A DNA stretch of 32,466 bases from a virus. Under the pieces are notes generated by a model that saw only the letters and a program-made list of their open reading frames with translations, did not search any database and had not been told where the DNA came from. The position numbers and the translations under genes are program-made. The stretch lies in IMG/VR virus record IMGVR_UViG_3300008448_000366, positions 1-32,466 of that record. One strand, given 5' to 3'. How positions within the stretch are numbered: position 1 is the first letter of the stretch; every line of letters starts with the position of its first letter. This document shows positions 5,577-29,734 of this stretch, in pieces.

Positions 5577-5586
5577 AATATTTATA
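5577..5586 (+). promoter_or_regulatory. Motif-B (late-type) element before GIY-YIG gene
   Basis: AATATTTATA ends 5 nt before the ATG at 5592. The same element lies directly before several late genes on the minus strand (11675, 15004, 25953) and before the plus-strand gene at 10110. A transcript starting just downstream would be leaderless or nearly so. Confidence 0.45.
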
Positions 5587-5591
5587 TATAG

Positions 5592-6011
5592 ATGAGTTTA
5601 GTATACCAACATAGAAGGAAAGATACAGGACAGATCTTCTACATAGGAATAGGGGAATCAAAGTCAAGAGCCTACGACAAAACCGGTAGGAATGATATCT
5701 GGAATCGAATCACCCAAGAAACAGAATATACAGTAGAGATAATAAAGAATAATATAACCAGAGAAGAAGCAAAGAATATAGAAAGATCATTAATATCAGA
5801 ATATGGTAGGATAGATAAGAAGACAGGTATATTATCTAATAAGAGTATAGGTGGAGAAGGAGATAATATAGGAGGATCTGGTCCATTAGAAGGTTGGGAA
5901 GATAGACAAAACATATTAAAGGATATAGAAAGAATAATCCCGGAACAGTATAGATACTTAAGTGCAAGCCAATTTATGGCTATGATATATAGAAAGTCTA
6001 AGGCACTATAA
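5592..6011 (+). CDS. GIY-YIG family endonuclease
   Basis: The protein has the ordered elements of the GIY-YIG fold. VYQH (residues 4-7) and IFYIGIG (15-21) give the paired strands. Arg26 in SRAY is the conserved arginine on the first helix, and Glu64 in KNIERSLISEYGR is the metal-binding glutamate. NKSIGGEGDN (about 83-92) is typical of the YIGIG-xxx-RAY subgroup. The C-terminal 45 residues (DRQNILKDIERI, QYRYLSASQFMAMIYRKS) may be a short DNA-binding tail. Known members cut DNA as homing endonucleases or repair-type nucleases. Here it is a free-standing gene with its own late-type promoter element and not inside an intron. At 139 aa it is complete. Activity on host or rival phage DNA is inferred. 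Confidence 0.75.
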   Translation: MSLVYQHRRKDTGQIFYIGIGESKSRAYDKTGRNDIWNRITQETEYTVEIIKNNITREEAKNIERSLISEYGRIDKKTGILSNKSIGGEGDNIGGSGPLEGWEDRQNILKDIERIIPEQYRYLSASQFMAMIYRKSKAL

Positions 6012-6320
6012 AGAATATCTAAGATCTTAAAAGTATTATAAAAAATAATATCTATAGAGTATACATATATTTGTATCCTTTGTGTATTAATAACCAATGG
6101 AAAGAAATTCCTAGGTTCCAGACCATATCTCGCCGGCGCTGCACAACCAATTGATTTGCAATAAGTTAGGAATTATAAATAAGAATATACATAAAGGATT
6201 GATACCCAATGGTAGTTTGGCTAAAAGACATATTTATGTATATAAGTGTTTGGTTATAAACGACTTATAACTGATTGATTGCCAATAAAAACTTTCCATA
6301 AATACAAAAATAAATTTTTT
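6012..6320 (+). other. Intergenic region with inverted repeats, no gene
   Basis: About 310 nt before promoter copy 3 hold no convincing frame. Visible elements are a TATATTTG box (6066-6073, like a host -7 element but without a clear -33 box), an internal palindrome CGCCGGCG (6131-6138), a short TACC/GGTA hairpin (6203-6214), and a 7-bp inverted repeat (6253-6271). Two related 20-nt strings, AACCAATTGATTTGCAATAA (6145) and AACTGATTGATTGCCAATAA (6269), recall a third at 2250. It may be a regulatory region or a small RNA gene; nothing is decisive. Confidence 0.5.
6253..6271. repeat. Perfect 7-bp inverted repeat (operator or RNA hairpin candidate)
   Basis: GTTATAA (6253-6259) and TTATAAC (6265-6271) are perfect inverted copies separated by ACGAC. 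The site lies about 55 nt upstream of promoter copy 3 (6325-6347). It could be a dimeric-repressor operator or a weak hairpin in a transcript. It is very AT-rich, so chance occurrence is possible. Confidence 0.4.
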
Positions 6321-6324
6321 TATG

Positions 6325-6347
6325 TCACTGGATTGTCTTACTTTTAC
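6325..6347 (+). promoter_or_regulatory. Motif-A promoter copy 3
   Basis: TCA (6325-6327) in TATGTCA is followed after 11 nt by TACTTTTAC (6339-6347), a variant of the TATATTTAC box. It lies behind a T-tract (6315-6321). The next start, 6371, is preceded by CAATAAGGGTTATG. The downstream stretch from TTTAC to AATAA nearly repeats that at copy 2. Confidence 0.55.
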
Positions 6348-6370
6348 TATGTAACAAATCAATAAGGGTT

Positions 6371-6535
6371 ATGAAATTTAGAGTATTAGATAGAAATGAT
6401 GTTGGGATCTGGGGAAACGTTTATGATAGCAATGGTAAGTACGTAAAATCAATGAACATACCCTATAAAGAGTGGGCCTCAAAATATGGTGTCCTTTTTC
6501 ACGATGCATATCTCAGAACGTTTGACCTAAAATAA
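6371..6535 (+). CDS. Small hypothetical protein (54 aa)
   Basis: A 55-codon frame whose ATG is preceded by AATAAGGGTTATG, close to the common leader, 23 nt after promoter copy 3. The sequence (MKFRVLDRNDVGIWGNVYDS, then NGKYVKSMNIPYKEWASKYG) has the look of a small beta-rich domain followed by a helix and ends HDAYLRTFDLK. No family is known to me. Promoter and leader make expression likely even though the gene is short. Confidence 0.6.
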   Translation: MKFRVLDRNDVGIWGNVYDSNGKYVKSMNIPYKEWASKYGVLFHDAYLRTFDLK

Positions 6536-6560
6536 ATTTAATATATTAAAAATAAAAGTT

Positions 6561-6869
6561 ATGAATCCAACAACATTTATCCCAATAGAGATCGACCTTG
6601 ACCAGAAATGCTCTGTACTTATCGGAAGCTCTAGAGACCTTATCGAACTCCAAAGGATCGTAGTAACCTATAACGAATACATGTCAGAAAAAGATCGTGT
6701 TCAGATCGACATCTATGAGGACTCGGACTCTAAGGTCGTCAAAGGTATGCTCACAGGAACTGCCATGGGTATATTCCACATCGGTATCAGGCTTGGTGCT
6801 TCTGAAGAAAAGAAGTATCTCCAGGGTCTTGGTCCAGGCTTCTTGAGGGATCTGATACTTGGAAAATAA
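6561..6869 (+). CDS. Hypothetical phage protein (102 aa)
   Basis: The start is supported by the exact leader AATAAAAGTTATG. The protein is probably alpha/beta: FIPIEIDLDQKCSVLIGSSR suggests a strand and turn, then RDLIELQRIVVTYNEYM a helix, and VQIDIYEDSDSKVVKGML further strands. A GTAMGIFHIGIRLGASEEKK segment follows. The glycine-rich end (YLQGLGPGFLRDLIL) may be a small hydrophobic contact. I do not recognise the family. Codons are well adapted (C-rich third positions), as in the DUF932 gene after it. Confidence 0.65.
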   Translation: MNPTTFIPIEIDLDQKCSVLIGSSRDLIELQRIVVTYNEYMSEKDRVQIDIYEDSDSKVVKGMLTGTAMGIFHIGIRLGASEEKKYLQGLGPGFLRDLILGK

Positions 6870-6880
6870 ATTTTTTACTA

Positions 6881-6903
6881 TCAACTAAATGTCTTATATT
6901 TAC
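6881..6903 (+). promoter_or_regulatory. Motif-A promoter copy 4
   Basis: TCA (6881-6883), 11 nt, then TATATTTAC (6895-6903), behind the T-tract TTTTTTACTA (6871-6880). It shares GTCTTATATTTACTA with copy 1. The DUF932 gene starts at 6926 with the leader AATAAAGGTTATG. Confidence 0.6.
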
Positions 6904-6925
6904 TAAATAAAAACAAATAAAGGTT

Positions 6926-7738
6926 ATGTCAACAGCACAAAATTTTAAGAACAACGTTATCACTTCAATTTCAATGGACTCTGCAAAGACTCTGGCTCCG
7001 GCTATCTTTGCCACTTCACCTGCTCCAACCATTAAGAGTCCTAAGTATGAATTCACCCCGACCTTTGAGGTTATCAACCACATGCAGGATATGGGTTACT
7101 TGTTGACTGGCGTGAAGCAGTCAAAGTCAAACGTGGACCTACGTAAGAATTGGGGTATCCACATCACCCGCTTCCAACACCCTGACCTCTATATCAAGAA
7201 CCCACAGGGTGAGGTAGAAGCAAGGCCCGAGGTTGTACTGATCAACTCACATGACGGTACAAGGCCTATTCAATTTGAGATGGGCCTGTTCAGGCTTGTA
7301 TGTGAGAATGGTTTGGTGATCAAAGACCAAGACATGGGATCCTTCCGTGAAAGGCATACCAAGCTTAACTTCCAGGCTGTTAAAGATCTTATTGATCAAA
7401 AGGTATCTGGCCTCCAAGAAGTTGTTGGTAAGATCAGTCAATGGAATATGGTAGAGATGACTGACAAACAAAGGTTTAACTTTGCTGTAGAAGCCTTGGC
7501 ATTAAGGATGGGTACTGACCGTCAACCAGAACAGTATGAGATCATGGACATCTTGAACCCTAAACGTAAGGCTGATGAAGGTAATACTTTATGGCAGACC
7601 TATAACGTTCTACAGGAAAACCTGATCAAGGGTGGCTTCCAACTGAACAATAGGCAAGCCCGTGCCATTAAGAACCCTATAGAGGACTTCAACCTGAACC
7701 AAGACCTATGGCAGTTGGCCGATACCTACGTAAAGTAA
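6926..7738 (+). CDS. DUF932 (phage/plasmid-like) protein
   Basis: A 270-residue protein with the hallmarks of DUF932: a mid-protein strand-turn VVLINSHDGT, followed by a QFEMGLFRLVCENGLVI segment (in full-length members F-x-x-x-x-x-R-L-x-C-x-N-G-x) and a helical second half. This family is common on plasmids and phages near replication genes. Members look like DNA- or nucleotide-binding accessory proteins, but no biochemical role is settled. It has its own promoter (6881-6903) and strong leader, and codon use richer in C/G than the neighbours, suggesting high early expression. Length is in the normal range and no break is seen. Confidence 0.85.
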   Translation: MSTAQNFKNNVITSISMDSAKTLAPAIFATSPAPTIKSPKYEFTPTFEVINHMQDMGYLLTGVKQSKSNVDLRKNWGIHITRFQHPDLYIKNPQGEVEARPEVVLINSHDGTRPIQFEMGLFRLVCENGLVIKDQDMGSFRERHTKLNFQAVKDLIDQKVSGLQEVVGKISQWNMVEMTDKQRFNFAVEALALRMGTDRQPEQYEIMDILNPKRKADEGNTLWQTYNVLQENLIKGGFQLNNRQARAIKNPIEDFNLNQDLWQLADTYVK

Positions 7739-7935
7739 TTGGTTAGAGAGTCGGGGTGCTAGCACTATGCTGGTGCCCTGCTCCTAGTCATTAGCAACTT
7801 ACTAGCATCATGGCAAAGACCTAGTTATGGTAGATAGGGGGGCCCTAGCAGGGGGGCCCGCGTTGACCGGCCCTGCACACCGGGGAATTTTCCAAATCGG
7901 TATAAAAAATAAATACGTAAATAAAAATAAAGGTT
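7739..7935 (+). other. GC-rich hairpin cluster, no gene
   Basis: About 200 nt after the DUF932 stop contain no gene but unusual GC-rich structure for this genome. A 13-bp stem (7752-7764 with 7768-7780, loop CTA, several G-U pairs) is followed by two direct copies of GGGGGGCCC (7837-7845 and 7851-7859) and then CCGG pairs (7867-7884). The tetramer CTAG appears five times between 7759 and 7847. No U-tract follows, so it is not a plain terminator. A structured 3' end, an attenuator for the gene at 7936 or a replication element are all possible. Confidence 0.6.
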
Positions 7936-8232
7936 ATGATATCAAAAAGAATATTTGAAAAAGTTTATCCATTTGGATTTGAAGTTAATAAGTATGAAGG
8001 AGATAAGAATTACACTATCACAGGTAATCTTACAAGAGAGTATTGCTTTAAAAAGTATAGTAGTAACTATGATGTTGAGGAGCATATACAGGATCATATA
8101 AATTGTGATGGAATTAGTTTCGATTCAGAGTATAGTCAGTTCTTTGCCTATGCCGAAACCGAGGAGAGAGCCATAAAGTTCTGTTTAGATATCCAGGCTT
8201 GGTTTGATAAGATAAAAGAGTTAGTAGGTTAA
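7936..8232 (+). CDS. Conserved hypothetical phage protein (98 aa)
   Basis: The start is set by the exact leader AATAAAGGTTATG. The second half contains SFDSEYSQFFAYAETEERAI followed by KFCLDIQAWFDKIKELVG, a pattern (SE-x-SQFFAY-x-E-x-x-x-x-A) I associate with small phage proteins of unknown function. The first half is basic and aromatic (RIFEKVYPFGFEVNKYEGDK). The fold is probably two strands and a C-terminal helix. It opens the next run of small genes, downstream of the GC-rich hairpins. Confidence 0.65.
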   Translation: MISKRIFEKVYPFGFEVNKYEGDKNYTITGNLTREYCFKKYSSNYDVEEHIQDHINCDGISFDSEYSQFFAYAETEERAIKFCLDIQAWFDKIKELVG

Positions 8233-8257
8233 TCATTACATTCAAAATATAAATAAA

Positions 8258-8431
8258 ATGAATACTCTATTCCTAATTGACATTATAATGTGGATCTTTT
8301 TGGTCTGTTTTGGCTTCATAATATTTACCATTATAGGAGAAGCAATAGCCAACAAACTTCCAAATACTAACAAATTTAAAAAGTGGTGGAGAAAACATGT
8401 TATAGAAGACAAACCATACGATTCATACTAA
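8258..8431 (+). CDS. Single-pass membrane protein (57 aa)
   Basis: ATG 8258 follows AAATAAAATG spacing typical here. The first 30 residues are hydrophobic (LFLIDIIMWIFLVCFGFI, then IFTIIGEAIA), making one long or two short membrane segments. The rest is basic and probably cytoplasmic (NKFKKWWRKHVIEDKPYD). No known motif. Position between two well-formed genes with short gaps supports it. Confidence 0.5.
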   Translation: MNTLFLIDIIMWIFLVCFGFIIFTIIGEAIANKLPNTNKFKKWWRKHVIEDKPYDSY

Positions 8432-8441
8432 AAACAAATAT

Positions 8442-8699
8442 ATGTATATTTTAACTCTAGCCAAGTCAGTATCAAAAACAGAATTTAAAGAGGCCCTTGA
8501 TTGTATGAAGCAAATCAATGATGCAGGCCTAATGATAGAATTTATTGACCTTGTTAAGGAAATGGAATTAGAAGGTACAGACATCATGAGTTGTATCTAC
8601 AATGCCAACTATGATTTGTTGATAGATCGGGAAACCGGAAAATGGAAGAAAGAGTTGGAAAACCTAATGCCAACATCCGGGAAAAACATAACTTACTAA
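8442..8699 (+). CDS. Hypothetical helical protein (85 aa)
   Basis: A helical protein: LAKSVSKTEFKEALDCMKQI and GLMIEFIDLVKEMELEGTDI look like two amphipathic helices, and the end is charged (DRETGKWKKELENLMPTSGK). There is no catalytic signature. It is preceded by AAAACAAATATATG. The family is not recognised. Confidence 0.6.
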   Translation: MYILTLAKSVSKTEFKEALDCMKQINDAGLMIEFIDLVKEMELEGTDIMSCIYNANYDLLIDRETGKWKKELENLMPTSGKNITY

Positions 8700-8712
8700 A
8701 AATAGTAAATAC

Positions 8713-8805
8713 ATGTTTATAATAATCGGACTATTCAAATTGTTTATTACCTTTCTAATAGGATATAACATAGGATATTACACAGTCAAAAGCTTACAAA
8801 AATAA
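8713..8805 (+). CDS. Tiny membrane peptide (30 aa)
   Basis: ATG 8713 to TAA 8803-8805. Residues 2-22 are hydrophobic (FIIIGLFKLFITFLIGYNIG) and the tail is short and basic (YYTVKSLQK). It is a typical one-helix phage micro-protein that fits the gap between two larger genes exactly. Function is unknown. Confidence 0.45.
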   Translation: MFIIIGLFKLFITFLIGYNIGYYTVKSLQK

Positions 8806-8825
8806 ATTTACTTAAATATAAAATT

Positions 8826-9230
8826 ATGAAAAAAGGACTATTACTCAAAACTCCTGCGGGTTGGTGCGTGGCTACAAAAAAATCACTCTCCGAAGTTGAG
8901 TCTTACCCAGTCTCCTCAGAATTTGTAAGAACAAATAATCTAAAACATAATACCCCAGTATTATTTAAAGTTTCACTAAGTACAGTGGTAGACATGCAAA
9001 AATATACCCCAATCAAATCATATAGGAAACATTCTTTAACAGAAAAACCTGGTGGTTCTACTTTGAAATTCATATTTGCTGGTAAAGTGCAAACTCGAGA
9101 AAGGATTAAATATCCAACTGCCTATGTCAATAAGGTCCTGAAAGAGATTGAAAACGAACCTGATTTCCTTATGGAAATATATGAGAATGGGGAATTGATT
9201 TGGGAAGCGGGTGAATTCATATTTGCATGA
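8826..9230 (+). CDS. Hypothetical phage protein (134 aa)
   Basis: Begins MKKGLLLKTPAGWCVATKKS, a strand-rich opening with a conserved-looking GW, and continues with YPVSSEFVRTNNLKHNTPVL and FKVSLSTVVDM. The middle is basic (YRKHSLTEKPGGSTLKFIF), and the C-terminus is acidic (FLMEIYENGELIWEAGEF). The fold may be a small beta barrel. Its last codons overlap the next start by 4 nt (ATGA at 9227), so the two products are translated together. The partner is a GIY-YIG-type protein, which hints at a shared task, but no function is known. Confidence 0.6.
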   Translation: MKKGLLLKTPAGWCVATKKSLSEVESYPVSSEFVRTNNLKHNTPVLFKVSLSTVVDMQKYTPIKSYRKHSLTEKPGGSTLKFIFAGKVQTRERIKYPTAYVNKVLKEIENEPDFLMEIYENGELIWEAGEFIFA

Positions 9231-9733
9231 AACAGATAACCCTAGAAGAAGCCAAATACTACGTCAAGCTAGAGGAAGGTGATCCCTATAGAATCCGTAA
9301 GGCTGTGGCCTATACCCTAACTCCATGTGATGAACCTGGTTGGGAAGGTTGGGAAGAAGTTACATACTACGGTGAAGGGATCATTGATCCTACCTTGAGT
9401 GTCAAAAAGCCTGAGTGGGTCTACGTTTTGGTAAACAAGTCTATGCCCGGCATCTGTAAGATTGGTATGACTACTACTAGCGTCAATCAAAGAGTCAATG
9501 AAATTAACCAAGCAACCGGAGTAATAACCCCATGGTTTTCTGTCTATAAGTACAAGTGTATCAATAGTCGAATTCTAGAAAAGGCTGTCCATCAACATCT
9601 AGAGAAGCTTGGGTATAGAGTAAACCCTAAACGTGAAGGCTTCGAAATATCTTCTAAGGATGCCATTGCTGTCATAGAATTGTTAGGCGAGCAGTTGACG
9701 GTTACTCCAAAGGATTTTGATAGTCATGAATAG
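9227..9733 (+). CDS. T5orf172 / GIY-YIG-like nuclease
   Basis: The central part matches the T5orf172 (MUG113-type) branch of the GIY-YIG superfamily. WVYVLVNKSMPG (residues 64-75) gives the first strand, CKIGMTTTSVNQRVNEINQA (77-96) the second strand and the helix with its conserved arginine, and LEKAVHQHLEKLGYRVNPKR (117-136) contains the ALE/AVH-x-x-x-x helix with Glu118 as the likely metal ligand. GFEISSKDAI closes the domain. An N-terminal extension of about 60 residues (DEPGWEGWEEVTYYG) is extra and may bind a partner. Translation overlaps the upstream gene by 4 nt. Members are encoded by phages and act as nucleases in theory; the target is unknown. Confidence 0.75.
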   Translation: MKQITLEEAKYYVKLEEGDPYRIRKAVAYTLTPCDEPGWEGWEEVTYYGEGIIDPTLSVKKPEWVYVLVNKSMPGICKIGMTTTSVNQRVNEINQATGVITPWFSVYKYKCINSRILEKAVHQHLEKLGYRVNPKREGFEISSKDAIAVIELLGEQLTVTPKDFDSHE

Positions 9734-9750
9734 GATAAGTAATATATTTG
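9716..9750 (+). promoter_or_regulatory. Possible host-type promoter before the 9794 gene
   Basis: TATATTTG (9743-9750) equals the Bacteroidota -7 consensus TAnnTTTG, and TTTG at 9716-9719 lies 23 nt upstream as a possible -33 box. The spacing is at the long end for this promoter type. It would serve the membrane protein at 9794. AT-rich context makes a chance match possible. Confidence 0.35.
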
Positions 9751-9793
9751 TAAATACTATATTTTTAGGCCCCTTGCCGGAAACAAAACAGTT

Positions 9794-10078
9794 ATGACAT
9801 ACTTATTAATCATTCTAGCCTCTTTATTTATTTGCTTCTTAGTAGTTAAGCTATTTAGATTTGTGCTAGCATTCTGTCTATTGTGCCTGGGACTCATTGG
9901 GCTAGGCCTGGTCATGCTTCCATGGAATATGGATATTGGTATTCAACTAATGACAGTATGTATCTGTTTATTGTTTATTACAATCGTGGTAACTATGTTT
10001 GCAGGTATTGTATCAGCATTAATTGTTACTCCTTTGATTTTATTATGGCAAGGCATCAAGACTTTATTTATTAAGTAA
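9794..10078 (+). CDS. Membrane protein with about three hydrophobic segments (94 aa)
   Basis: Nearly the whole chain is hydrophobic: a first segment (LLIILASLFICFLVVKLF), a second (VLAFCLLCLGLIGLGLVMLP) and a third and fourth (LMTVCICLLFITIVVTMF, GIVSALIVTPLILLW), with a short basic end (GIKTLFIK). It is a polytopic inner-membrane protein. A holin role is conceivable by size and topology, but no endolysin lies next to it. The next gene is a late-type gene with motif B, so this one closes the early run. No specific family is recognised. Confidence 0.6.
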   Translation: MTYLLIILASLFICFLVVKLFRFVLAFCLLCLGLIGLGLVMLPWNMDIGIQLMTVCICLLFITIVVTMFAGIVSALIVTPLILLWQGIKTLFIK

Positions 10079-10082
10079 TTCG

Positions 10083-10093
10083 ATATTTATAAG
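10083..10093 (+). promoter_or_regulatory. Motif-B (late-type) element
   Basis: ATATTTATAAG lies 16 nt before the ATG at 10110. It is identical to the core of elements before late genes on the minus strand. This suggests that the two plus-strand genes at 10110-10855 are late genes even though they point against the structural block. Confidence 0.5.
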
Positions 10094-10109
10094 TAGTAAA
10101 ATTATTATA

Positions 10110-10547
10110 ATGAAAGATTTTAACATTGCAAAGTATTTAAAAGAAAACCACCTAGGTTCACATAGCATCCTTGGTAAATATGTAGACCTCCACGCTTTGA
10201 AAGAAGAAGAGGTTGGAAACAATAAGCCTGTAAGTAAAGTACCTTATGATGGTGCTGAAGAGAAGCTTGATGGATTTGGAGATGAATTTGATCAAGTTGC
10301 TCCAGTAGAAGAAGATTTTTCATACGATGATGACACAGATGATGTAAATCCTTTTCCTTCAATTATAGATGGTAATGATCAAGAAGAAACTGATGATACC
10401 AGAATGATGGATCTTGGTGGAGATCAGATTGAGCAAGGCATTATATCTTTATTAGATGACGGATTTGATGCAAAAGATATCGTAAATCTTGTTAAGTATT
10501 TACTTACCGCCCAACTTAGAGCAAAATCACAAGGAAAACAATTTTAA
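10110..10547 (+). CDS. Acidic late protein, possibly virion-associated (145 aa)
   Basis: Short basic N-terminus (MKDFNIAKYLKENHLGSHSI), then a very acidic, probably disordered middle (EEDFSYDDDTDDVNPFP and further DDTRMMDLGGDQ), then a helical end (EQGIISLLDDGFDAKDIVNL, then VKYLLTAQLR). The opening FNIxKYLxENxLxS recalls small proteins of aquatic T4-like phages. Preceded by motif B, so late expression is expected. The stop is 2 nt before the next gene. It may be a virion component or an assembly factor; no enzymatic motif is present. Confidence 0.55.
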   Translation: MKDFNIAKYLKENHLGSHSILGKYVDLHALKEEEVGNNKPVSKVPYDGAEEKLDGFGDEFDQVAPVEEDFSYDDDTDDVNPFPSIIDGNDQEETDDTRMMDLGGDQIEQGIISLLDDGFDAKDIVNLVKYLLTAQLRAKSQGKQF

Positions 10548-10549
10548 TC

Positions 10550-10855
10550 ATGCCATTTAATTTTAAGTCTTATACCTCAAATAATCCGCTTCTCAAAGAA
10601 GTAGACGAGGAAGTTACAGTTAGTTCCTCAGGTGTTGAAATGGGACAGAATTCTCAAGACATAGATATCTGGCAGATGGCTGGAGATCATCTTGAAGACT
10701 TTAGGTCTGAGTTAGCTAGTGCTCATGCAATGGCAAGTCAAAGTGGACAGAAAGAATGGGTTAGCGCCCTTAACAAAATTGCTTTGAGATTAGATGCTCT
10801 TGAAAGTGCTATGGCAGAAGCCAATGCTAAATTAGGAGTACTCCCTATGAAATAA
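10550..10855 (+). CDS. Small late protein (101 aa)
   Basis: Begins 2 nt after the previous stop and is the last plus-strand gene before the terminator at 10881. N-terminus FNFKSYTSNNPLLKEVDEEV is followed by a low-complexity SSSGVEMGQNSQDIDIWQM and then a long helix (DFRSELASAHAMASQSGQKE, then WVSALNKIALRLDALESAMA), which is likely a coiled coil. It shares its transcript with the acidic protein at 10110 and may be its partner. The family is not recognised. Confidence 0.55.
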   Translation: MPFNFKSYTSNNPLLKEVDEEVTVSSSGVEMGQNSQDIDIWQMAGDHLEDFRSELASAHAMASQSGQKEWVSALNKIALRLDALESAMAEANAKLGVLPMK

Positions 10856-10880
10856 CCTCTTGCATGCCCCATACATAGAT

Positions 10881-10909
10881 AGCCTTGGCAATAGCCAGGG
10901 CTTTTTTAT
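10881..10909 (+). terminator. Rho-independent terminator at the convergent junction
   Basis: AGCCTTGGC (10881-10889) pairs with GCCAGGGCT (10894-10902) over 9 bp with one G-U pair and an AATA loop, followed by TTTTTATT. It ends the plus-strand run. The T-tract overlaps the stop codon of the minus-strand gene (10906-10908). Read on the minus strand no U-tract follows, so it works in one direction only. Confidence 0.85.
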
Positions 10910-11361
10910 TGTACGTCTTTTCTGTAAAATCTACCTTGTATATTATCGTTATATGAATCTATATGTAGAACTCTATAGTGCATTTGCCAATATACTTCAT
11001 AGTAGGTTAACTGCTTCTTAGAAAAACAAAATTGAAGGATCTCTCTAGTGAATATATCATCACCCAATTCCTTCCTTTCTTGGTTCAAAAGCTTATTACT
11101 TCCATGGTAAGATAACCAATCAGACTCTTTAATTATCTTTCGTTTGCGTGGGACGCGCCCAGGTTTGTCCCATTCCGCGATCTCCTTCTTGGTTAATGTT
11201 TTACTAGTATTGTTAAAAAGGACCTTTCTACCTATATAGAATTTGTTATTGACAACGTTGGTTATCTTATAGATAAACCCTATGGCTTCAGGGGAAAAAT
11301 CTTCTATCTTATTAAACTCTCTAGTGATTCCTAAAGGATCAAAATATAACCATTTATTCAT
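10906..11361 (-). CDS. SegE-like GIY-YIG endonuclease
   Basis: GFIYKITNVVNNKFYIGRKV (residues 28-47) carries the two GIY-YIG strands with Y-x-I and F-Y-I-G and the nearby Arg45/Lys46. The linker is basic (PRKRKIIKES), then DWLSYHGSNKLL (81-92) is the W-x-x-Y-x-G-S-N signature of SegE-like phage endonucleases. FTREILQFC and LTYYEVYWQ (119-127) follow, Glu122 being the probable metal ligand. Such free-standing genes often move between phages by homing. It is the last gene of the late block. At 151 aa it is complete. Cleavage site and activity are unknown. Confidence 0.75.
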   Translation of the reverse strand: MNKWLYFDPLGITREFNKIEDFSPEAIGFIYKITNVVNNKFYIGRKVLFNNTSKTLTKKEIAEWDKPGRVPRKRKIIKESDWLSYHGSNKLLNQERKELGDDIFTREILQFCFSKKQLTYYEVYWQMHYRVLHIDSYNDNIQGRFYRKDVQ

Positions 11362-11370
11362 ACTATATTT

Positions 11371-11673
11371 TTAACTATCCCACCTTACTATAAAAGTCAT
11401 ATCTGTATTTGGAGGAATGGGGTATGGCCTTGCTAATTTTCCTACAACTAATAGTTCATCACTATCATTATACAGGCCTACCATGGTAGTATATGGATGG
11501 AAGTCTGATCCTGTCACAGCATCTATATATGAACCTGTACCTGTAGATTTAGTAGCACTTGGATTTTGTGTATAATTAAAGTCATTTTCATTTATTCGGC
11601 ATCTTACTTCATTTTGATAAATGGTAGTCTCTGCACTTAAAGACATCGAGTATGGTGAGTAGGCTATCGGCAT
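11371..11673 (-). CDS. Stand-alone copy of a fibre C-terminal domain (100 aa)
   Basis: This protein aligns by eye with the last 80 or so residues of the 343-aa structural protein at 15842-16873. Both show NYT-x-NPS, then a glycine/serine/threonine-rich loop, then P-x-T-x-x-VGLYNDxxELLxVxKLxxP and a final VR/VK-x-D/W strand. The stretch VGLYNDSDELLVVGKLARPY is the clearest part. A virion (tail or capsid decoration) domain that has been duplicated or split off is the likely meaning. Motif B (11675-11686) sits 1 nt before the ATG, so it has its own late promoter element inside the end of the upstream gene. Confidence 0.65.
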   Translation of the reverse strand: MPIAYSPYSMSLSAETTIYQNEVRCRINENDFNYTQNPSATKSTGTGSYIDAVTGSDFHPYTTMVGLYNDSDELLVVGKLARPYPIPPNTDMTFIVRWDS

Positions 11674-11674
11674 A

Positions 11675-11686
11675 CTTATAAATATT
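11675..11686 (-). promoter_or_regulatory. Motif-B element 1 nt before the ATG
   Basis: On the minus strand AATATTTATAAG is followed by T and the ATG (11673-11671). It lies within the last codons of the GT25-like gene. If the element is a -10 box, the message begins at or after the start codon. Confidence 0.5.
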
Positions 11687-12299
11687 TCGCTAAATAAGAA
11701 TCCTTAACATCATTCCATAAGAATCTTGTTATCGGTTCATTGTAATTATTCTGATAGAAATATGGACCGTCTTTTGGGGTTAAGTATAATTTTTCCTTAG
11801 ATCTTAATGCTAAATCTACATCTAAAAACTCATGGGTATTTAATGACTCTTGTATAGACTCTAGTAAGAAGTTTGCTGTATTGATACTAGATACAACCAT
11901 AGTATGCATAGACAACATATAGTAGATTCTATAATACTCTTCATTATACTCCTCTAAATACATATTAGGTTTGTATCCACCTGTTTCATACAAGCTTCCT
12001 CCTAATAATATGAGGCTTTCGGTATCATGTATAGTTATGAATTCAGGCAAATCTTTTATAGGTTCTATATCATCATCCATCATTATAAAAGGATATTTAC
12101 CTATTTCTATTGCTGTATGTAATAGTTTAATTACTCCAAAAGCAATTCTGTCTTGTCTTAAATCTGCTTGGTGTGAATTAGAAATTCTTAAAGCATTTAT
12201 ATTAAGAGATTCTGCTAACTTTTCCATATTAGCTTTCCTTTCTGTATATCCTTCAAAATTAAGATAATAAAAAGGAATGTCTTTTAATTTTATTAACAT
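11676..12299 (-). CDS. GT-A type glycosyltransferase, GT25-like (207 aa)
   Basis: IPFYYLNFEGYTERKANMEK (residues 8-27) matches the opening of GT25-type sugar transferases, where a strand Y-x-I/L-N-L/F is followed by E/D-R-x-x-x-x. YPFIMMDDDIEPIKDLPEF contains the acidic DDD (75-77), the expected metal and nucleotide-sugar site. The remaining chain is alpha/beta with a late acidic/aromatic part. It would transfer a sugar, acceptor unknown. Its start overlaps the GT6-like gene by 7 nt, and an AGGAGG sequence lies a few bases upstream of the ATG, rare in this window. With the two genes before it, it forms a glycosyltransferase trio beside threonine-rich fibre genes. Confidence 0.65.
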   Translation of the reverse strand: MLIKLKDIPFYYLNFEGYTERKANMEKLAESLNINALRISNSHQADLRQDRIAFGVIKLLHTAIEIGKYPFIMMDDDIEPIKDLPEFITIHDTESLILLGGSLYETGGYKPNMYLEEYNEEYYRIYYMLSMHTMVVSSINTANFLLESIQESLNTHEFLDVDLALRSKEKLYLTPKDGPYFYQNNYNEPITRFLWNDVKDSYLAKYL

Positions 12300-15001: not shown

Positions 15002-15003
15002 AT

Positions 15004-15031
15004 CTTATAAATATAGTATTTTATAAATATT
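15004..15031 (-). promoter_or_regulatory. Two tandem motif-B elements before the Thr-rich gene
   Basis: On the minus strand AATATTTATAA (15031-15021) is followed by ATATTTATAAG (15014-15004), then AT and the ATG (15001-14999). The second copy has the same 2-nt spacer as the one before the 681-aa structural gene (25953). Confidence 0.5.
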
Positions 15032-17544: not shown

Positions 17545-17591
17545 ATAAAATGGGCTTTTAAATAAATATAATGAATTTCTATTTTTCTACG

Positions 17592-21785: not shown

Positions 21786-22123
21786 TATATTATATCGTTA
21801 ATGCTTGTAAACGATTGATTTAAATCTAATAATTGTTGGCGAAGAGAATTAATCTCTTCAATAAGTGCCTGTTTTTCAGCATCTATTACAGAACCTCCAA
21901 TATACTGTTGACTTCTTTCTACTAGATAGGTATGAGAGTTAATTGTTCCATCTACTGGTATATTAAAGAATAGTTGATCATAATACTGAAAAAAATCATC
22001 TACTGTAATAACACTACCTGTATCAGGAACTGTAGGAGTTATTAATTCTGAAAAGCTAATATTAATAGCTTTAGAGTATGTATTAATTCCATAAATCTCT
22101 TTAACCAAATCTACATTTGCCAT
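21785..22123 (-). CDS. Small structural protein with C-terminal coiled coil (112 aa)
   Basis: It overlaps both neighbours by 1 nt (TAATG-type junctions), so translation is coupled. Residues 1-80 look beta/alpha mixed (VDLVKEIYGINTYSKAINIS, VDDFFQYYDQLFFNIPVDGT). Residues 83-106 are a helix with heptad-like spacing (EKQALIEEINSLRQQLLDL). Small coiled-coil proteins of this kind lie between wedge and fibre genes in T4-like phages. A trimeric connector role is possible. No known family is recognised. Confidence 0.6.
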   Translation of the reverse strand: MANVDLVKEIYGINTYSKAINISFSELITPTVPDTGSVITVDDFFQYYDQLFFNIPVDGTINSHTYLVERSQQYIGGSVIDAEKQALIEEINSLRQQLLDLNQSFTSINDII

Positions 22124-23229: not shown

Positions 23230-23240
23230 TTTTAGTCTTT

Positions 23241-25094
23241 TTACATTGTTACTACACGACCTTGAATATCTGTGTTAGGATATTTTATTTCAAATATTGA
23301 AGGATCCAAAGAAGGATATATAACACCATTTAAAGTACCAGCAGATATATCATAAGAATATTTAGAGTATCCATCTACCTCTCCTGATTTATTTACAATT
23401 CTAATATCTTTAACTGTTTGTACGCCTTCTACGGTGTCTAACAATGAATATATATCTCCTAACAAAATAGGCTGGTTAATCTGCCAATTAGTAATTTTAA
23501 AGAAGTCTTGCAAAACTAAAATACATCTTGCTATAACATCTTGACTTGTATAGTTAGGGCGAATAACAATATCAAAGTTACAACCTATATTAATAATATA
23601 TGCAGGTTTAAGATTAACTGCATCGGTCATCATTCTATATTCAGAAAGGTATGTTTGTAAATTTTGAAGTAAAGCTGGTGAAGGATCTGCTAATTGATTA
23701 GAGCTATTTAATCCTAATACATACATACTAACCAACACTTGATCTTTTTGACTTATATCTCTCATGTAGTTATTAAAAGTAGCATCATCTTTTGTTACAT
23801 ACGCCTTACTTATTTTACCATATTCAGCTGGCATACTTAATGCTCTTGCAAGATAGTCTTCTTGTGTTACAGCTCTTAACTGTGTTGGAAACTCATTAGC
23901 TATATTAAATCTTAATTCATCTACTGTATCACCATCGCCGCCGCCAGATGCTGGATCTGAATTATTTACCACTATTGTATTTTGATATGTAGTATTTCCA
24001 GATACGGTATAAGATGCTAATTGAGTAAGTTGATTTGATAATACATTTGCAGAAGCTCCTCCACCTACAAGATATTGAAAAGTAATAGTTGTATTTTTTG
24101 GCGCAATACCGTATGTTTGAGTTGTTACAAAGTTAGTAGGATCAAAAGAACTAGATAAGGTACTAAGTCCACCGCCAGTTAAACCGACACTAACATTGTT
24201 AGGATCAGGTAAAATAGTGCTATCAGCTGCTGAATTTATTCCAGAACCAAATTCTATTTCTAATGTACCATCAGTTCTGAATCTAGATACAAATCTTCTC
24301 GGAACTTGTAACTTTTGAATCATGTATGGAACTTGATTCTGATATTGATATAAGCTAGGATAATTAGCTGCTGTATTTTGTACTGGCTTTAATATATAAT
24401 CTTGAGCAAGATAAGGTACTTCGTACCAAGTATTACCAGAAGAATCCTTAGCTTCTAATATTGTTATTATAGAAGCATCTTGTATATTAATTGTTGTAAA
24501 TCTTTGAGGAGCTGAGAATGTGAATGCTGCGTTTTTAACCTGTCCAGATATTGCTTGTACTGTTTTCTTAAATAAGTATGATGTAGGAACATTACTTCCA
24601 TTAACTGTATAGACTTCTATATTTGTAGGATCATATGAAGATGATGTAGTAAAGTCTACTTTTTGAGGCACATAAAATAGTACTGATGTATTTATATTAG
24701 ACCTCACTTGCATTCCTTGACCTATAGTCATAGCATAAGTAAAATCAGGAATTACATCTGGTCCTACAGTAACAGAAGGAACTTGTTGATAGACATCTAA
24801 ATTAACAATAGCTGCAGAAGTAACTTTTGGTCTATAACCTAACATGTAGGCTAAAGTATATAAGTTATTCTTTTGTTTTGCATATTGTAAGAATGTTTCT
24901 TGAAGTTGATTATCAAGGTAAAATGAAAGTACGTCTCCTACATAAGAAGCCATATCAATGAACATACTACCAGGACTAGGCTGAGTAAAGTCATTATAGA
25001 CGGTTGGATAATAAGCTCTTGCATACTCAATCAAATCTGTTTTGAACGAGCTAAAGTCTTTATTTAGATATTTTATATCAACTTGGTTAGGCAT
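23241..25094 (-). CDS. Baseplate wedge protein, gp6 / baseplate-J-like
   Basis: 617 residues (T4 gp6 has 660). The N-terminus shows the typical KYLNKDFSSFKTDLIEYARA, then PSPGSMFIDMASYVGDVLSF and YLDNQLQETFLQYAKQKNNL, the helices that pack at the dimer interface of gp6. The middle carries DELRFNIANEFPTQLRAVTQ followed by EDYLARALSMPAEYGKISKA, the conserved baseplate-J segment, and the C-terminus has the NWQINQPILLGDIYSLLDTV core. In T4, gp6 forms the inner ring of the wedge iris that holds the hub. It lies directly upstream of fibre genes and downstream of gp25, the usual T4-like order. Confidence 0.9.
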   Translation of the reverse strand: MPNQVDIKYLNKDFSSFKTDLIEYARAYYPTVYNDFTQPSPGSMFIDMASYVGDVLSFYLDNQLQETFLQYAKQKNNLYTLAYMLGYRPKVTSAAIVNLDVYQQVPSVTVGPDVIPDFTYAMTIGQGMQVRSNINTSVLFYVPQKVDFTTSSSYDPTNIEVYTVNGSNVPTSYLFKKTVQAISGQVKNAAFTFSAPQRFTTINIQDASIITILEAKDSSGNTWYEVPYLAQDYILKPVQNTAANYPSLYQYQNQVPYMIQKLQVPRRFVSRFRTDGTLEIEFGSGINSAADSTILPDPNNVSVGLTGGGLSTLSSSFDPTNFVTTQTYGIAPKNTTITFQYLVGGGASANVLSNQLTQLASYTVSGNTTYQNTIVVNNSDPASGGGDGDTVDELRFNIANEFPTQLRAVTQEDYLARALSMPAEYGKISKAYVTKDDATFNNYMRDISQKDQVLVSMYVLGLNSSNQLADPSPALLQNLQTYLSEYRMMTDAVNLKPAYIINIGCNFDIVIRPNYTSQDVIARCILVLQDFFKITNWQINQPILLGDIYSLLDTVEGVQTVKDIRIVNKSGEVDGYSKYSYDISAGTLNGVIYPSLDPSIFEIKYPNTDIQGRVVTM

Positions 25095-25096
25095 CT

Positions 25097-25510
25097 TTAC
25101 ATATTTTGTATTGTCAATGTGACATTATCATTTTCATTTGATCTTAAAAGCCTATAACTAAATTTTATATTTATAGAGTTATAATTAGGGTCTCCTATTA
25201 TTTCTAAAGTAGTAATTTCAATCTGAGGGAAATATGATTCCATTTGAGTCCTTATAGATTGTTTCATATTATCAAAAGTATCTTGATCAATCTGTTCAAA
25301 TAATCTAGCTCTAAGTCCAGCACCAAAAGTTGGATTAAAAACCCTTTCTCTTGGATCTGTTAAAAGATAGTTTATGATATTATATTTGATCTGATCCTTT
25401 GTAGTATATACAGATTGAAATACGTTCTCTGCTGAGAATGGAATTTTAACTCCAATTGCTGTTGAAGGCTTGAGGTCTAATGGTGATATTTTCTTTAGTC
25501 CGTATGCCAT
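25097..25510 (-). CDS. Baseplate wedge protein gp25-like (GPW/gp25 family)
   Basis: A 137-residue protein with the family core TKDQIKYNIINYLLTDPRER followed by VFNPTFGAGLRARLFEQID. The EPR/PRER-type motif and the FGAGL turn are the diagnostic part of the lysozyme-like gp25 fold. The end gives the expected strands (IEITTLEIIGDPNYNSINIK). The basic arginine-glutamate pair helps anchor the sheath-wedge junction in known systems. It starts by overlapping the 146-aa gene by 1 nt and ends 2 nt before gp6. Together these two genes fix the baseplate identity of the block. Confidence 0.92.
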   Translation of the reverse strand: MAYGLKKISPLDLKPSTAIGVKIPFSAENVFQSVYTTKDQIKYNIINYLLTDPRERVFNPTFGAGLRARLFEQIDQDTFDNMKQSIRTQMESYFPQIEITTLEIIGDPNYNSINIKFSYRLLRSNENDNVTLTIQNM

Positions 25511-25950
25511 TAAATTTGTCCTTGCTCTTTAAGTTTGGCCATAAGTCCTGAAAAGTCTGGAACCTCATTTATCTGAACAGCATCTATATTAGAACTGGGT
25601 CTAGCAGATCCAAGCATACCTTGAACTGATCCTACCTGAACTTCTTTAGGTTGGAAAGCTAATCCAGGATGAACATCACCAGAAGTCATACTAAAGTCTT
25701 CATTTAACATACTCTGAGCGGTATCATTTAAGAAAGCCGCCATTGGATTGTTATTAGTAAACTTGATAGGTTTAGGAGTAGAGGTATTTAATGTTCCAGG
25801 TATCTTTGACTTAACCTGTTCTTGAAGGTTTTTCTTTTGGTCTATCATAACAGGGGCTTTTACTTCCTTTAATATTTTTGGAAGCTCTTCCTTTAGAACC
25901 GCCCTAAGTTCTTCTCTTATTAATTTTCTAAGTGCATCTATTTGTGCCAT
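25510..25950 (-). CDS. Baseplate-associated protein with N-terminal coiled coil (146 aa)
   Basis: Residues 1-30 are a strongly amphipathic helix (LRKLIREELRAVLKEELPKI). The rest is low in order, with proline/asparagine-rich turns (TPKPIKFTNNNPMAAFLND) and an end with VPDFSGLMAKLKEQGQI. There is no enzymatic motif. It lies between the 681-aa structural gene and gp25 and overlaps gp25 by 1 nt. It is probably a connector or assembly helper in the baseplate. Motif B lies 2 nt before its ATG (25953-25964). Confidence 0.6.
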   Translation of the reverse strand: MAQIDALRKLIREELRAVLKEELPKILKEVKAPVMIDQKKNLQEQVKSKIPGTLNTSTPKPIKFTNNNPMAAFLNDTAQSMLNEDFSMTSGDVHPGLAFQPKEVQVGSVQGMLGSARPSSNIDAVQINEVPDFSGLMAKLKEQGQI

Positions 25951-25952
25951 AT

Positions 25953-25964
25953 CTTATAAATATT
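25953..25964 (-). promoter_or_regulatory. Motif-B element 2 nt before the ATG of the 146-aa gene
   Basis: On the minus strand AATATTTATAAG (25964-25953) is followed by AT and the ATG (25950-25948). The arrangement ATATTTATAAG-AT-ATG is identical to that at 15014-14999. Confidence 0.5.
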
Positions 25965-25968
25965 ATTT

Positions 25969-28014
25969 TTAACCATTTTTAAGCTGTTTAATTTTATTGT
26001 CTACTTCCTTTATTTTCTTAATAGTAATAGCTAATAAAATTGGATTAGAAGCAGCAACTGGTAAAGTAGCTTGAAGTCTTGATTTTTCCTTTTGGAGCTT
26101 ATCTATTTCTAATTGATTAGGATCTGGTCCTGAGCCTACTATTCCTGAGGTTACATCCGTTACTCCAGATATAGAGTTAGAATATTTACCTTCAGGATCA
26201 GTACTAGAAAGATTTGATTTTAATTTTTGCGATTGTTTGGATAATAAAGACCTAACTTTTTTACGAAGGCTAGTTCCACCAGGAAGATTATTTATAAATG
26301 ATGATAGTCCCAATTCGTCATCTTGATCTTTATAATTTTGAATATCTTGTTCAGATACATTTATATTATCTATAGTAATATTATCGTCTTCCAAATAGCT
26401 TAAGGATTCTATCACTGTTACTTCTTCTTCAGATGATAAACCTTCTAAATTAGCTTTTACTAATCCTTTTGATACTAATAAAACTTTTACTTCATTTATT
26501 ATAATTAAGTCTAAAGATGCGAATGTAGGAGTGGATTCTACAACTATATAACCGCTATTATTTCTAGCAATTCCATATCTTCTCCTAATACTTATTCCTT
26601 CATCAACTAATTCTTCCGTTACTATTTCTATTGTATATTCACCAAATATTTTATTTTTATTATCGTCTGTCTGATTGGTTTTATCCAAAAAGTCTTGAAG
26701 AGCGTTTGCTGTGATAGTAAGACTAGTTATTGTATTAGTCAAATCTTGTTTAATTTCTGCATCTATAAGATCAGAATTTTCAATATTACAATTTTCTATA
26801 TTAAGTAGTACAGCATTTAGTTTTCCTATAATTTCACCCATTATAGCTACTAAACTTGTAACAAATATAGTCATCAAGTTTAATACAGCATTTATTTGAT
26901 TTAATCTTTTCACTAACTTTTTTTGGCCTAACTCTGTTAACTTTTGTTGAAATATGTCATTTAATTTTATGTCTGTTCCTTTAGTTCCAAATAAGCTTGG
27001 TATGGGTATAGCTACTATAAATGTTTTAACTATAGTAAATGCTTTTAAGATAAAAATAACAAGTCTTATAATAGTTCTTGCTGTATTAATATATTTTAAT
27101 GCATTTTGTGCTACTGAATTTATATTATTAGCTAATCTTAATATTGATTTTATTACTTTTGAAATATCTTTAAGAGGTACTAATTTATTTATTTTTGCTA
27201 TTTCTTGTTGAACTTTACTATCTAAAATTGTATCTACAAAGTTAACTGCAGATGCTACTGAGTTAAGTCCTTGAATAGCTATGCAATAATATCTTACTTT
27301 ATCTATAGTATTTACTATCTTTTTAACGTCTGTATTTGGAATATTACTAACATTTGTATAACTATTAAATATTCCTGACGAATTTGACAAAAAATTACCG
27401 GCTACAGATAATTGAGGAAAAGCTTGTATTAATTCTGGATCATTAACACCAGTATTTGGAGAAAGAATTGTTGAGAATATTTCATTAATATCTCTAATTA
27501 AATTAGATAATCCTAATTTACTTTCTGGATTAGATGCATCGCCATAACTAGTATAATATTTATCTATTTTTTTTTGAACTTCAAAGGCCTTATTTTGTAA
27601 ATTCCATTTAGCTCTTGATATTTTATCTGTTGGTATTGGTCCTCTAGGATTAAAAGATTGGCCTTTAGGTACTTGAGTTATAGTATAATTTAATAAATTA
27701 CAAAAATCTACACCAGCAAAATTAGTAAGTAAATTATCTATGCCCTTATCTAAAGCCCTTTGAATAGCTGTTCCTTGGTTTTGTTTTAATTTAAACTCAC
27801 CATAAAATATCTTATTTGTTTTACCTTGAGCTTTTATAATAAATTTAGCAATAACACCAATTACTTTTTCTAAACCTTTAGCAGTAGTAGTATTTGCATT
27901 AAGTTTATTATTAGTTATATTAACATTAAACTTCTTTTCAAATTGAGATCCAAAAGGATTATTCTTTACTTGATTAGTTGTTTTGGCAATATTTGGATTT
28001 AAAGCTGGTATCAT
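25969..28014 (-). CDS. Large baseplate/hub-side structural protein (681 aa)
   Basis: A long helical protein, lysine- and asparagine-rich at both ends. Between about residues 310 and 410 it has several hydrophobic helices (TIIRLVIFILKAFTIVKTFI, VLNLMTIFVTSLVAIMGEII). A beta module around residues 455-520 (FGEYTIEIVTEELVDEGISI, then RRRYGIARNNSGYIVVESTP) recalls a conserved stretch in structural proteins of aquatic T4-like phages. The end is a helix of charged residues (LEIDKLQKEKSRLQATLPVA). Position between spike and gp25 suggests the baseplate hub or a tail-tube-proximal piece. The hydrophobic helices could touch the host membrane during infection. Function is inferred from context. Confidence 0.6.
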   Translation of the reverse strand: MIPALNPNIAKTTNQVKNNPFGSQFEKKFNVNITNNKLNANTTTAKGLEKVIGVIAKFIIKAQGKTNKIFYGEFKLKQNQGTAIQRALDKGIDNLLTNFAGVDFCNLLNYTITQVPKGQSFNPRGPIPTDKISRAKWNLQNKAFEVQKKIDKYYTSYGDASNPESKLGLSNLIRDINEIFSTILSPNTGVNDPELIQAFPQLSVAGNFLSNSSGIFNSYTNVSNIPNTDVKKIVNTIDKVRYYCIAIQGLNSVASAVNFVDTILDSKVQQEIAKINKLVPLKDISKVIKSILRLANNINSVAQNALKYINTARTIIRLVIFILKAFTIVKTFIVAIPIPSLFGTKGTDIKLNDIFQQKLTELGQKKLVKRLNQINAVLNLMTIFVTSLVAIMGEIIGKLNAVLLNIENCNIENSDLIDAEIKQDLTNTITSLTITANALQDFLDKTNQTDDNKNKIFGEYTIEIVTEELVDEGISIRRRYGIARNNSGYIVVESTPTFASLDLIIINEVKVLLVSKGLVKANLEGLSSEEEVTVIESLSYLEDDNITIDNINVSEQDIQNYKDQDDELGLSSFINNLPGGTSLRKKVRSLLSKQSQKLKSNLSSTDPEGKYSNSISGVTDVTSGIVGSGPDPNQLEIDKLQKEKSRLQATLPVAASNPILLAITIKKIKEVDNKIKQLKNG

Positions 28015-28015
28015 A

Positions 28016-28456
28016 CTATCTTGTAAATGTATTTTTAGATAATATTATAGAATCAGGATTTCTTACAAGATCTCCTAATCTTGTTGCTTCATCATTTATT
28101 TTTTGTCCGGCCATAGCTATGTATTGCATACTAGCACCTAAATTTGTTTCTGATACATTGGCTAATAAAGTTCCAGCAGCCGCAATTCTATCAAGAAATA
28201 CAGCCATTTGTATAGCAAAAGTTTTTCCTAATATTAAAGGCTCTCCTAGAGTTTGCGCTTTAGATCCTAATTCAATTATCTTACAATCTATTAATACTTT
28301 ATCAAAAGCATCTAAGTTAATAGTCTTTGTAGAAGATAAAGAAACAGCTTGTTTACCAAAAAGAAAAATTGCGTCAGACTTGGAATGGAGTATTACCCTA
28401 TCTGATGATAATATTAATTGGTTACCTTTATATGGAAATTTAGGTTCAAATATCAT
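28016..28456 (-). CDS. Tail spike / gp5-type beta-helix (146 aa)
   Basis: Residues about 10-80 repeat a short strand pattern with I/V at every second position and turns with S/G/D: LILSSDRVILHSKSDAIFLF, then GKQAVSLSSTKTINLDAFDK and VLIDCKIIELGSKAQTLGEP. This is the signature of triple-stranded beta-helix needles of gp5/VgrG type. The second half is a helix (FAIQMAVFLDRIAAAGTLLA, then MQYIAMAGQKINDEATRLGD). There is no lysozyme domain in the same chain, so enzyme and needle are separate here or the enzyme is absent. It overlaps the 299-aa gene by 4 nt. Likely the puncturing tip. Confidence 0.65.
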   Translation of the reverse strand: MIFEPKFPYKGNQLILSSDRVILHSKSDAIFLFGKQAVSLSSTKTINLDAFDKVLIDCKIIELGSKAQTLGEPLILGKTFAIQMAVFLDRIAAAGTLLANVSETNLGASMQYIAMAGQKINDEATRLGDLVRNPDSIILSKNTFTR

Positions 28457-29352
28457 CCTATACTATTTTTATCTTGTAGTTCTGCAGAAGTAATTTCATT
28501 TGATACAGGAGGTCTTTGTACTTCTAAAACATCTTGTATTTGTGGTTTTATGCTTACTCCAAAAGAGTTCAAAGGAAAACTATTTATGTCCTCTAAAAAT
28601 ATTTCTTGAGTAGATGTCATCCATATAGCAGAACCATCTTTATTTATATCTTCAACTATATTCTCAAATTTACCAAGACCTGGTCTATTACCCTGACTAT
28701 TTGTTATAATAGTAATAGGATCGCCGGTTTCTCCAGATGTAGACCAAGTATTAAACTTCTTCATTACAGGAACAGTACTGCCAAATCTTATAGACTGGCC
28801 AAATCTAGATTGTATAATGCTATCTCCTTCAAAAGGTTGAAGATTTCTAATATACTTTTCTGTAAATGTGGCCCCTAAGGGAAGTTTAGGAATGGCAGTA
28901 GCATTACCTTGATAATTAGGTTTATTTGAATAATCTGCTAAAAAGTCTTGCCATTCATACATGTTTGGAAAAGCTCCATGATTAGAATTATTCCATAAAG
29001 AGTATGGAGGAAAATAGAAAAACTGTTGATTTTGTGAACTATCATTAAGTCTTTCTGTAGGGCCTCCTAATATTAATACTATTTCATTTACTACTGGATA
29101 TTGCTTAATAAAAGAAAATATAGGAAATGCAGGATCGGATACTTCATTAGCTTTTGAAGTAGCTAATGGTGAATAAAGCAGCTCATACTTAATTTTACCG
29201 ATATCACCAGGGTTAGTATAATCAGGATCTGGTGTTTTAGTATTTCCTATGAATGGACCCATTACAATTTTCTTAACTCTACCAATAGTAAAATACTGGC
29301 CATGGGTTTGGCCAGCACCTGCATTAATAGGAAATATTAACTGATATGCCAT
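28453..29352 (-). CDS. Baseplate hub-like protein (299 aa)
   Basis: A beta-rich protein with LQPFEGDSIIQSRFGQSIRF followed by GSTVPVMKKFNTWSTSGETG, DPITIITNSQG and AIWMTSTQEIFLEDINSFPL. The segment EGDxIIQxRFGxSIRFGST is a conserved block I associate with hub-side structural proteins of T4-like aquatic phages, perhaps an OB-like domain comparable to that of gp5. The C-terminal 30 residues are disordered. It overlaps the spike gene by 4 nt and the 120-aa gene by 1 nt. It probably holds the spike in the hub; this is inferred from order and motif. Confidence 0.6.
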   Translation of the reverse strand: MAYQLIFPINAGAGQTHGQYFTIGRVKKIVMGPFIGNTKTPDPDYTNPGDIGKIKYELLYSPLATSKANEVSDPAFPIFSFIKQYPVVNEIVLILGGPTERLNDSSQNQQFFYFPPYSLWNNSNHGAFPNMYEWQDFLADYSNKPNYQGNATAIPKLPLGATFTEKYIRNLQPFEGDSIIQSRFGQSIRFGSTVPVMKKFNTWSTSGETGDPITIITNSQGNRPGLGKFENIVEDINKDGSAIWMTSTQEIFLEDINSFPLNSFGVSIKPQIQDVLEVQRPPVSNEITSAELQDKNSIG

Positions 29353-29714
29353 TATGCACTAGGGAGTTGTTTTGTATCCTTAACTTTAATATTTGTAACG
29401 TCAGCAAATAACTGTTCAATATCCTTTTCAGTAAGAACACCAGAATCTTCAGAGTCTCCTTTCTTTGCTTCGGCTGACGCCTTTTGAAATAAGGCAAGAA
29501 GTTTCATTAATACCTCGTCATTCTTGAGACTAGAGTCCATGAAGCCTTTTAAAAGAGGTACAATTACAATAGCATCACCAGGAGTTTCTATCATATCGGC
29601 AAGCCTCATGATCTCCTGTTTTATAGTACTGTCTTGGTTCTTGTGTTTATTATATACCTCCTCAACTAGATTAGCGACAGTCTTTCCTTTGAATATTTCC
29701 TTATCAAGTTCCAT
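29352..29714 (-). CDS. Conserved protein ahead of baseplate genes (120 aa)
   Basis: A helical acidic protein with IFKGKTVANLVEEVYNKHKN, then ETPGDAIVIVPLLKGFMDSS, LKNDEVLMKLLALFQKASAE and EDIEQLFADVTNIK at the end. The pattern KGKT-x-x-x-L-x-E-x-Y, then GDA-x-x-V-P-L-x-K and KND-E is known to me from T4-like phages of aquatic bacteria, always near baseplate or late-gene clusters. Function is not known; a baseplate chaperone or late-gene partner is possible. The motif-B-like element 29725-29734 lies 10 nt upstream of its ATG. Confidence 0.6.
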   Translation of the reverse strand: MELDKEIFKGKTVANLVEEVYNKHKNQDSTIKQEIMRLADMIETPGDAIVIVPLLKGFMDSSLKNDEVLMKLLALFQKASAEAKKGDSEDSGVLTEKDIEQLFADVTNIKVKDTKQLPSA

Positions 29715-29724
29715 GACTTTTTAG

Positions 29725-29734
29725 AATAAATATT
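29725..29734 (-). promoter_or_regulatory. Motif-B-like element
   Basis: On the minus strand AATATTTATT (29734-29725) precedes the ATG at 29714 by 10 nt. It deviates from the full motif in the last positions (TT instead of TAAG). It may separate the baseplate genes from the sigma gene. Confidence 0.4.

Follow-up and report, generated by a model that had tools for sequence, protein, structure and literature searches.

T4-type late promoters are activated by the sliding clamp gp45 acting with gp33, and their late sigma factor, gp55, combines a region-2 fold with the lack of region 4. The promoters are read by gp55 through a box, TATAAATA, at −13 to −6 (PMC2988020, PMC1524935), and the late promoters of Aeromonas phage Aeh1 carry CTAAATA from −12 (PMC1524935). 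Bacteroidota promoters have a −7 element, TAHHTTTG, and in the host-group member studied the messages mostly carry leaders, 87% of them longer than 10 nt (PMC6847099). Messages that lack a leader occur in bacteria and archaea (PMC4633059, PMC3160421).

We analysed a 32,466-base fragment of a myophage (hereafter the window), in which an element called motif B in the initial annotation stands before several start codons. Comparison with related phages suggests that this element is probably the late promoter of the group, that a subset of the messages made from it would be near-leaderless, and that it is probably read by the sigma-like product of gene 29733-30485. No earlier description of the box, and no published late promoter for these phages, was found in the papers searched; it is likely to be a variant of the T4-type late promoter that is new for this group as far as those papers show.

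Relatives were fetched with ORF 29733-30485, which matched 286 viral contigs (80 of these kept), and in a second search via the isolate Flavobacterium phage immuto, a phage of Flavobacterium sp. LMO8, which gave at least 600 further sigma-gene matches (80 kept); a search for relatives with the sigma of Microcystis phage Mel-JY01 as query returned none. By these match counts this group of Flavobacterium-type phages is very common in public viral contigs. Immuto shares 45.6% identity with the window in the baseplate protein and 47.1% in the sigma, and the same two proteins also tie the window to Mel-JY01 and to jumbo phage LR756508. Start codons were taken as the first ATG of each ORF or, for immuto, as annotated.

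Box sites and their enrichment before start codons

All copies of the element named in the initial annotation are present, before the ATGs at 11673, 15001 (doubled), 25950, 5592, 29714 and 10110, and a further copy not listed there, TATATTTATTTAAAAG, precedes ATG 17544. The conserved core of the element, in gene direction, is ATATTTAT, and its usual form is RATATTTATW. The sites and two of the genes behind them are given below, where the gap is the distance from the end of ATATTTAT to the ATG and leader lengths are predictions from the start position discussed in the next section.

5578..5585, plus strand: putative late box, gap 6 to ATG 5592; predicted leader ~2 nt
10083..10090, plus strand: putative late box GATATTTATAAG, gap 19 to ATG 10110; predicted leader ~15 nt
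11678..11685, minus strand: putative late box AATATTTATAAG, gap 4 to ATG 11673; predicted +1 is the A of ATG, leader 0
15007..15014, minus strand: putative late box, gap 5 to ATG 15001; predicted leader 0-2 nt
15023..15030, minus strand: second putative late box of the same gene, gap 21 to ATG 15001; predicted leader ~17 nt
17562..17569, minus strand: putative late box TATATTTATTTAAAAG, gap 17 to ATG 17544; present in 12/12 orthologs, at gaps 16-18
25956..25963, minus strand: putative late box, reading AATATTTATAAGAT|ATG through to the start codon at 25950, gap 5; spacing fixed in 34/34 close relatives
29726..29733, minus strand: putative late box that shares one position with the sigma-like gene, the final base of that gene; gap 11 (ATG 29714), giving a predicted leader of ~7 nt
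25510..25950, minus strand: gene, 146 aa, KLIREE family, behind the fixed-spacing promoter predicted to be near-leaderless
29352..29714, minus strand: gene, 120 aa, behind a putative promoter of drifting spacing; internal control

Two of these loci have further peculiarities. At 15007-15030 the boxes are arranged in tandem before one gene, with predicted leaders of 0-2 nt and 17 nt, and gene 5592-6011 (plus strand) sits among early-side genes and has a putative late box and a predicted 2-nt leader.

The full 12-mer originally proposed as the element did not hold up, as 26 matches with up to 2 mismatches were found over the whole window against 24.7 expected. The conserved core is shorter, and the signal lies in this core and its position. 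Within −30 to −1 of start codons in the window, ATATTTAT occurs in gene direction at 7 of 46 starts and reversed at none, while in 2000 shufflings of these upstream pieces that kept dinucleotides the core stood before 0.45 starts on average and before 4 at most. Across 13 contigs and in the same interval, the forward core precedes 114 of 763 starts (counted as distinct upstream pieces), against 6.4 expected from shuffles, and the reversed core precedes 16. Many of these copies are orthologs and so are not independent; by gene family, the fairer measure, the forward box is found in 31 of 275 families and the reversed box in 5. An unbiased ranking of 8-mers put ATATTTAT in second place (126 against 22), and the box was kept in 69/69 and 54/54 orthologs. 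Most genes, those that overlap or abut in operons, lack it. The positional enrichment of the box before starts is thus real.

The genome is about 67% AT, and this composition, with the lack of over-representation of the 12-mer in the window, could make the pattern a by-product of AT-rich intergenic DNA. We reject this explanation as scarcely credible, since it is contradicted by the strand asymmetry of the box, by its enrichment over shuffles that keep dinucleotides and by its conservation in orthologs.

Late genes in relatives and the register of the box

In the complete, annotated genome of immuto, 24 of the 30 forward copies of TATTTATA are intergenic, and intergenic DNA makes up 5.3% of that genome. 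TATTTATA precedes the genes for terminase, portal, sheath, tube, hub and tape measure and the gene after the major capsid gene; overall, the box stands before 18 of 102 late-side genes versus 5 of 131 early-side genes. Boxes of the immuto-like phages read CTATTTAT, with C at −12. Mel-JY01 has the same box before portal, tube and neighbouring genes, mostly at gaps of 13-41 nt that usually hold a separate Shine-Dalgarno-like sequence. In LR756508, whose sigma is 36% identical, the box was not found in the 100 kb examined, and it is therefore not universal among relatives of the sigma. Counting motif B with its orientation, a check suggested alongside the initial annotation, gave a gene-direction bias over the window and the 13 contigs and a late-side enrichment in immuto, and the box offers a ready rule for marking late genes in these phages.

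A second conserved position lies downstream of the box. At sites with gaps of 10-30, A predominates at the fifth position behind the box in 17 of 19 families, and neighbouring offsets reach at most 14; when the same sites are aligned on the ATG, the A peak vanishes. Where the box has R in front, the fifth base is A in 98%, and in the immuto-like set the A peak falls one base further downstream. Taking the conserved A as +1, a position uncertain by about 1 nt, places RATATTTAT at −13 to −5, the register of the T4 late box. A family-weighted logo showed no partner at −33/−35. From the orientation, position and spacing of the box and the A that follows it we infer a promoter composed of a single −10-like box, R(−13)ATATTTAT(−5), an AT-rich stretch and then A at +1, and lacking any −33/−35 partner, that would be read in gene direction by host RNA polymerase carrying a phage sigma factor.

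Such a promoter would resemble those of T4: each has a single −10-like box, positioned alike with respect to the inferred start, lacks a −35 element, is AT-rich downstream and stands before virion genes. The two boxes share A(−12), T(−11), A(−10), T(−7) and A(−6); they differ at −9/−8, where T4 has AA and the box here TT, and R occupies −13 here. In gene direction the box reads RATATTTAT or CTATTTAT rather than the T4-type TATAAATA, NATAAATA or CTAAATA, and TATAAATA is found only on the opposite strand of these elements, as the initial annotation had observed. Aeh1 late promoters and immuto-like boxes both have C at −12, but Aeh1, which belongs to another phage group, has AA in mid-box in place of TT.

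The second reading offered initially was a conserved translation signal. The box would then work in translation initiation, as a Kozak-like, AT-rich context within the mRNA, and not as a promoter. Translation in Flavobacterium is tuned by bases just 5′ of the AUG, including A at −3 (PMC6847099), and several copies of the box abut the ATG. However, the box can lie anywhere between 4 and 25 nt from the ATG, the conserved A keeps its distance to the box and not to the ATG, most genes are unboxed (only 31 of the 275 families have it), and in Mel-JY01 the box lies far upstream and is accompanied by Shine-Dalgarno sequences. These observations leave a translation signal very improbable. Because the distance to the ATG varies while the conserved A tracks the box, the box likely acts as a promoter. 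Neither the window's group nor immuto showed an enrichment of Shine-Dalgarno sequences, whereas in Mel-JY01 they usually accompany the box; the box thus travels independently of the mode of translation initiation. To our knowledge, Bacteroidota do without Shine-Dalgarno sequences.

Short spacings and predicted leaders

The gaps are bimodal in both groups, at 4-7 nt and then 10-25 nt, with 8 and 9 almost empty and gaps of 0-3 present at only 2 sites. A gap of 4 would place +1 on the A of the ATG, and gaps of 5-7 predict leaders of 1-3 nt; where the gap is 5, the predicted +1 falls on a T, and the start would need to move by one position. For the short-gap genes at 11673, 15001, 25950 and 5592, the first transcribed base would be the A of the AUG or lie 1-3 nt ahead of it, and for 29714, 17544 and 10110 the leader would be about 7-15 nt. 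We strongly predict that messages of the short-gap genes are leaderless or near-leaderless, with leaders of 0-3 nt, and their leaderless translation is plausible. As a positive control we took T4, where 15 of 60 starts have TATAAATA upstream, never at a gap below the 14 nt of the closest; the subset with very short predicted leaders here thus has no counterpart in that control.

Across the group, the leaders predicted for most families with a box are longer, about 5-20 nt, and a near-leaderless message is therefore not the general rule. The initial proposal, an altered late −10 box from which almost leaderless messages arise, accordingly stands in its first half, the promoter being well supported, and is narrowed in its second to the subset for which leaders of 0-3 nt are predicted.

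Conservation of the spacing bears on whether this subset matters. Gene 25510-25950 has a gap of 5 in 34/34 close relatives, and its immuto-like orthologs, among them gp114 (81525) of immuto, have a gap of 4 in 51/54 loci. The spacing before orthologs of 29352-29714 drifts, over 10-14 in close relatives and over 10-18 in immuto-like phages. That spacing is constrained at the first gene while it drifts at the second argues that the short spacing at 25510-25950 is functional.

Promoters of this type could also make RNAs that start at or just inside the first codons of short-gap genes and serve the genes downstream, the first gene being expressed from read-through transcripts. Short-gap genes can sit in packed operons (only 18 nt separate 25950 from the gene before it), the start position is known only to about 1 nt, and the leaders of over 10 nt on most host messages (87%; PMC6847099) would fit such an arrangement. 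Against it, the short spacing is constant in two divergent clades (34/34 and 51/54) while that of the other promoter drifts, and gaps of 0-3, which would put the start inside the gene, are nearly absent. We judge this explanation rather unlikely, though it carries more weight than the other alternatives considered here. The opposite possibility, which we advance tentatively and with less than even confidence, is that the sigma box is set so that messages of certain virion genes begin exactly at the AUG, with the spacing selected across divergent phages and the proteins made by a leaderless route late in infection, in a host that mostly uses leaders.

The predicted transcription start at the AUG would liken these messages to the leaderless ones of bacteria and archaea (PMC4633059, PMC3160421). 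The present case is distinct in that only a subset of genes would be affected, and in that leaders predominate in the studied member of the group to which the hosts of these phages belong. A gene with a fixed, near-zero predicted leader beside one with a drifting leader, behind the same promoter type, would provide natural test cases for leaderless translation in Bacteroidota.

The sigma-like protein and other promoter-like elements

The window encodes a candidate reader of the box.

29733..30485, minus strand: divergent phage RNA polymerase sigma factor, 250 aa; region-2 fold at residues 28-135, helical C-terminal domain at 158-250

Sequence profiles match this family weakly: of its 46 members, 29 hit Pfam Sigma70_r2 and 13 the late sigma family of PHROG (best E 0.026 for the latter). 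Sequence comparison with solved structures gave no usable match, and fold comparison alone gave one. The matches to the structure model (mean pLDDT 72.7) are almost all sigma factors, and residues 28-135 superpose on sigma region 2 with an rmsd of 2.6-3.2 over 82-99 residues. The C-terminal domain, residues 158-250, is modelled as helical and HTH-like (pLDDT 86.4), and a search for its structural relatives gave no clear match. The label gp55-type given at first thus holds as far as a sigma factor with a region-2 fold; with a best PHROG match of E 0.026, descent from gp55 itself would go beyond it. A T4-type clamp (PF02916) was not found in 7 records, including complete immuto, a search in which remote clamps could be missed; activation by a clamp in the T4 style is therefore not supported. 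Going by gene content, we infer that the product of 29733-30485 is the best candidate for, and most likely, the sigma that reads the box, which would give the unannotated proteins of this family a probable function.

Recognition could alternatively fall to the main sigma factor of the host, with the box serving as its −7 element and no phage sigma involved. The box partly matches TAHHTTTG, with a T-rich middle at nearly the same distance to the start, and the early-type promoters of the phage, TATATTTAC, resemble TAHHTTTG as well. The box nevertheless fails in either register at the near-invariant G(−5) and at one or more further near-invariant bases, is enriched at late and not early genes, and differs from the early-type element at its first and last bases; the phage, moreover, encodes a sigma-fold protein of its own. 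We consider recognition by the host sigma unlikely and favour reading of the box by the phage sigma.

Several other elements were noted. No Rfam-type RNA families or tRNAs were found across the window. At the contig end, 32071-32466, about 400 nt hold no gene-strand ORF that reaches 30 aa and no Rfam match. Box cores lie there at 32213 (plus strand) and 32385 (minus strand) with no start close behind either; the former, a core copy already recorded in the initial annotation, is present as described but is probably a chance occurrence. The early-type element TATATTTAC has 45 sites in the 13 contigs and in the window lies upstream of 1943, 6926 and others. In the immuto-like contigs (L125-L204), the strong upstream words TTTAGGTA, ATATTTAG and AATAAAGG mark a further promoter class.
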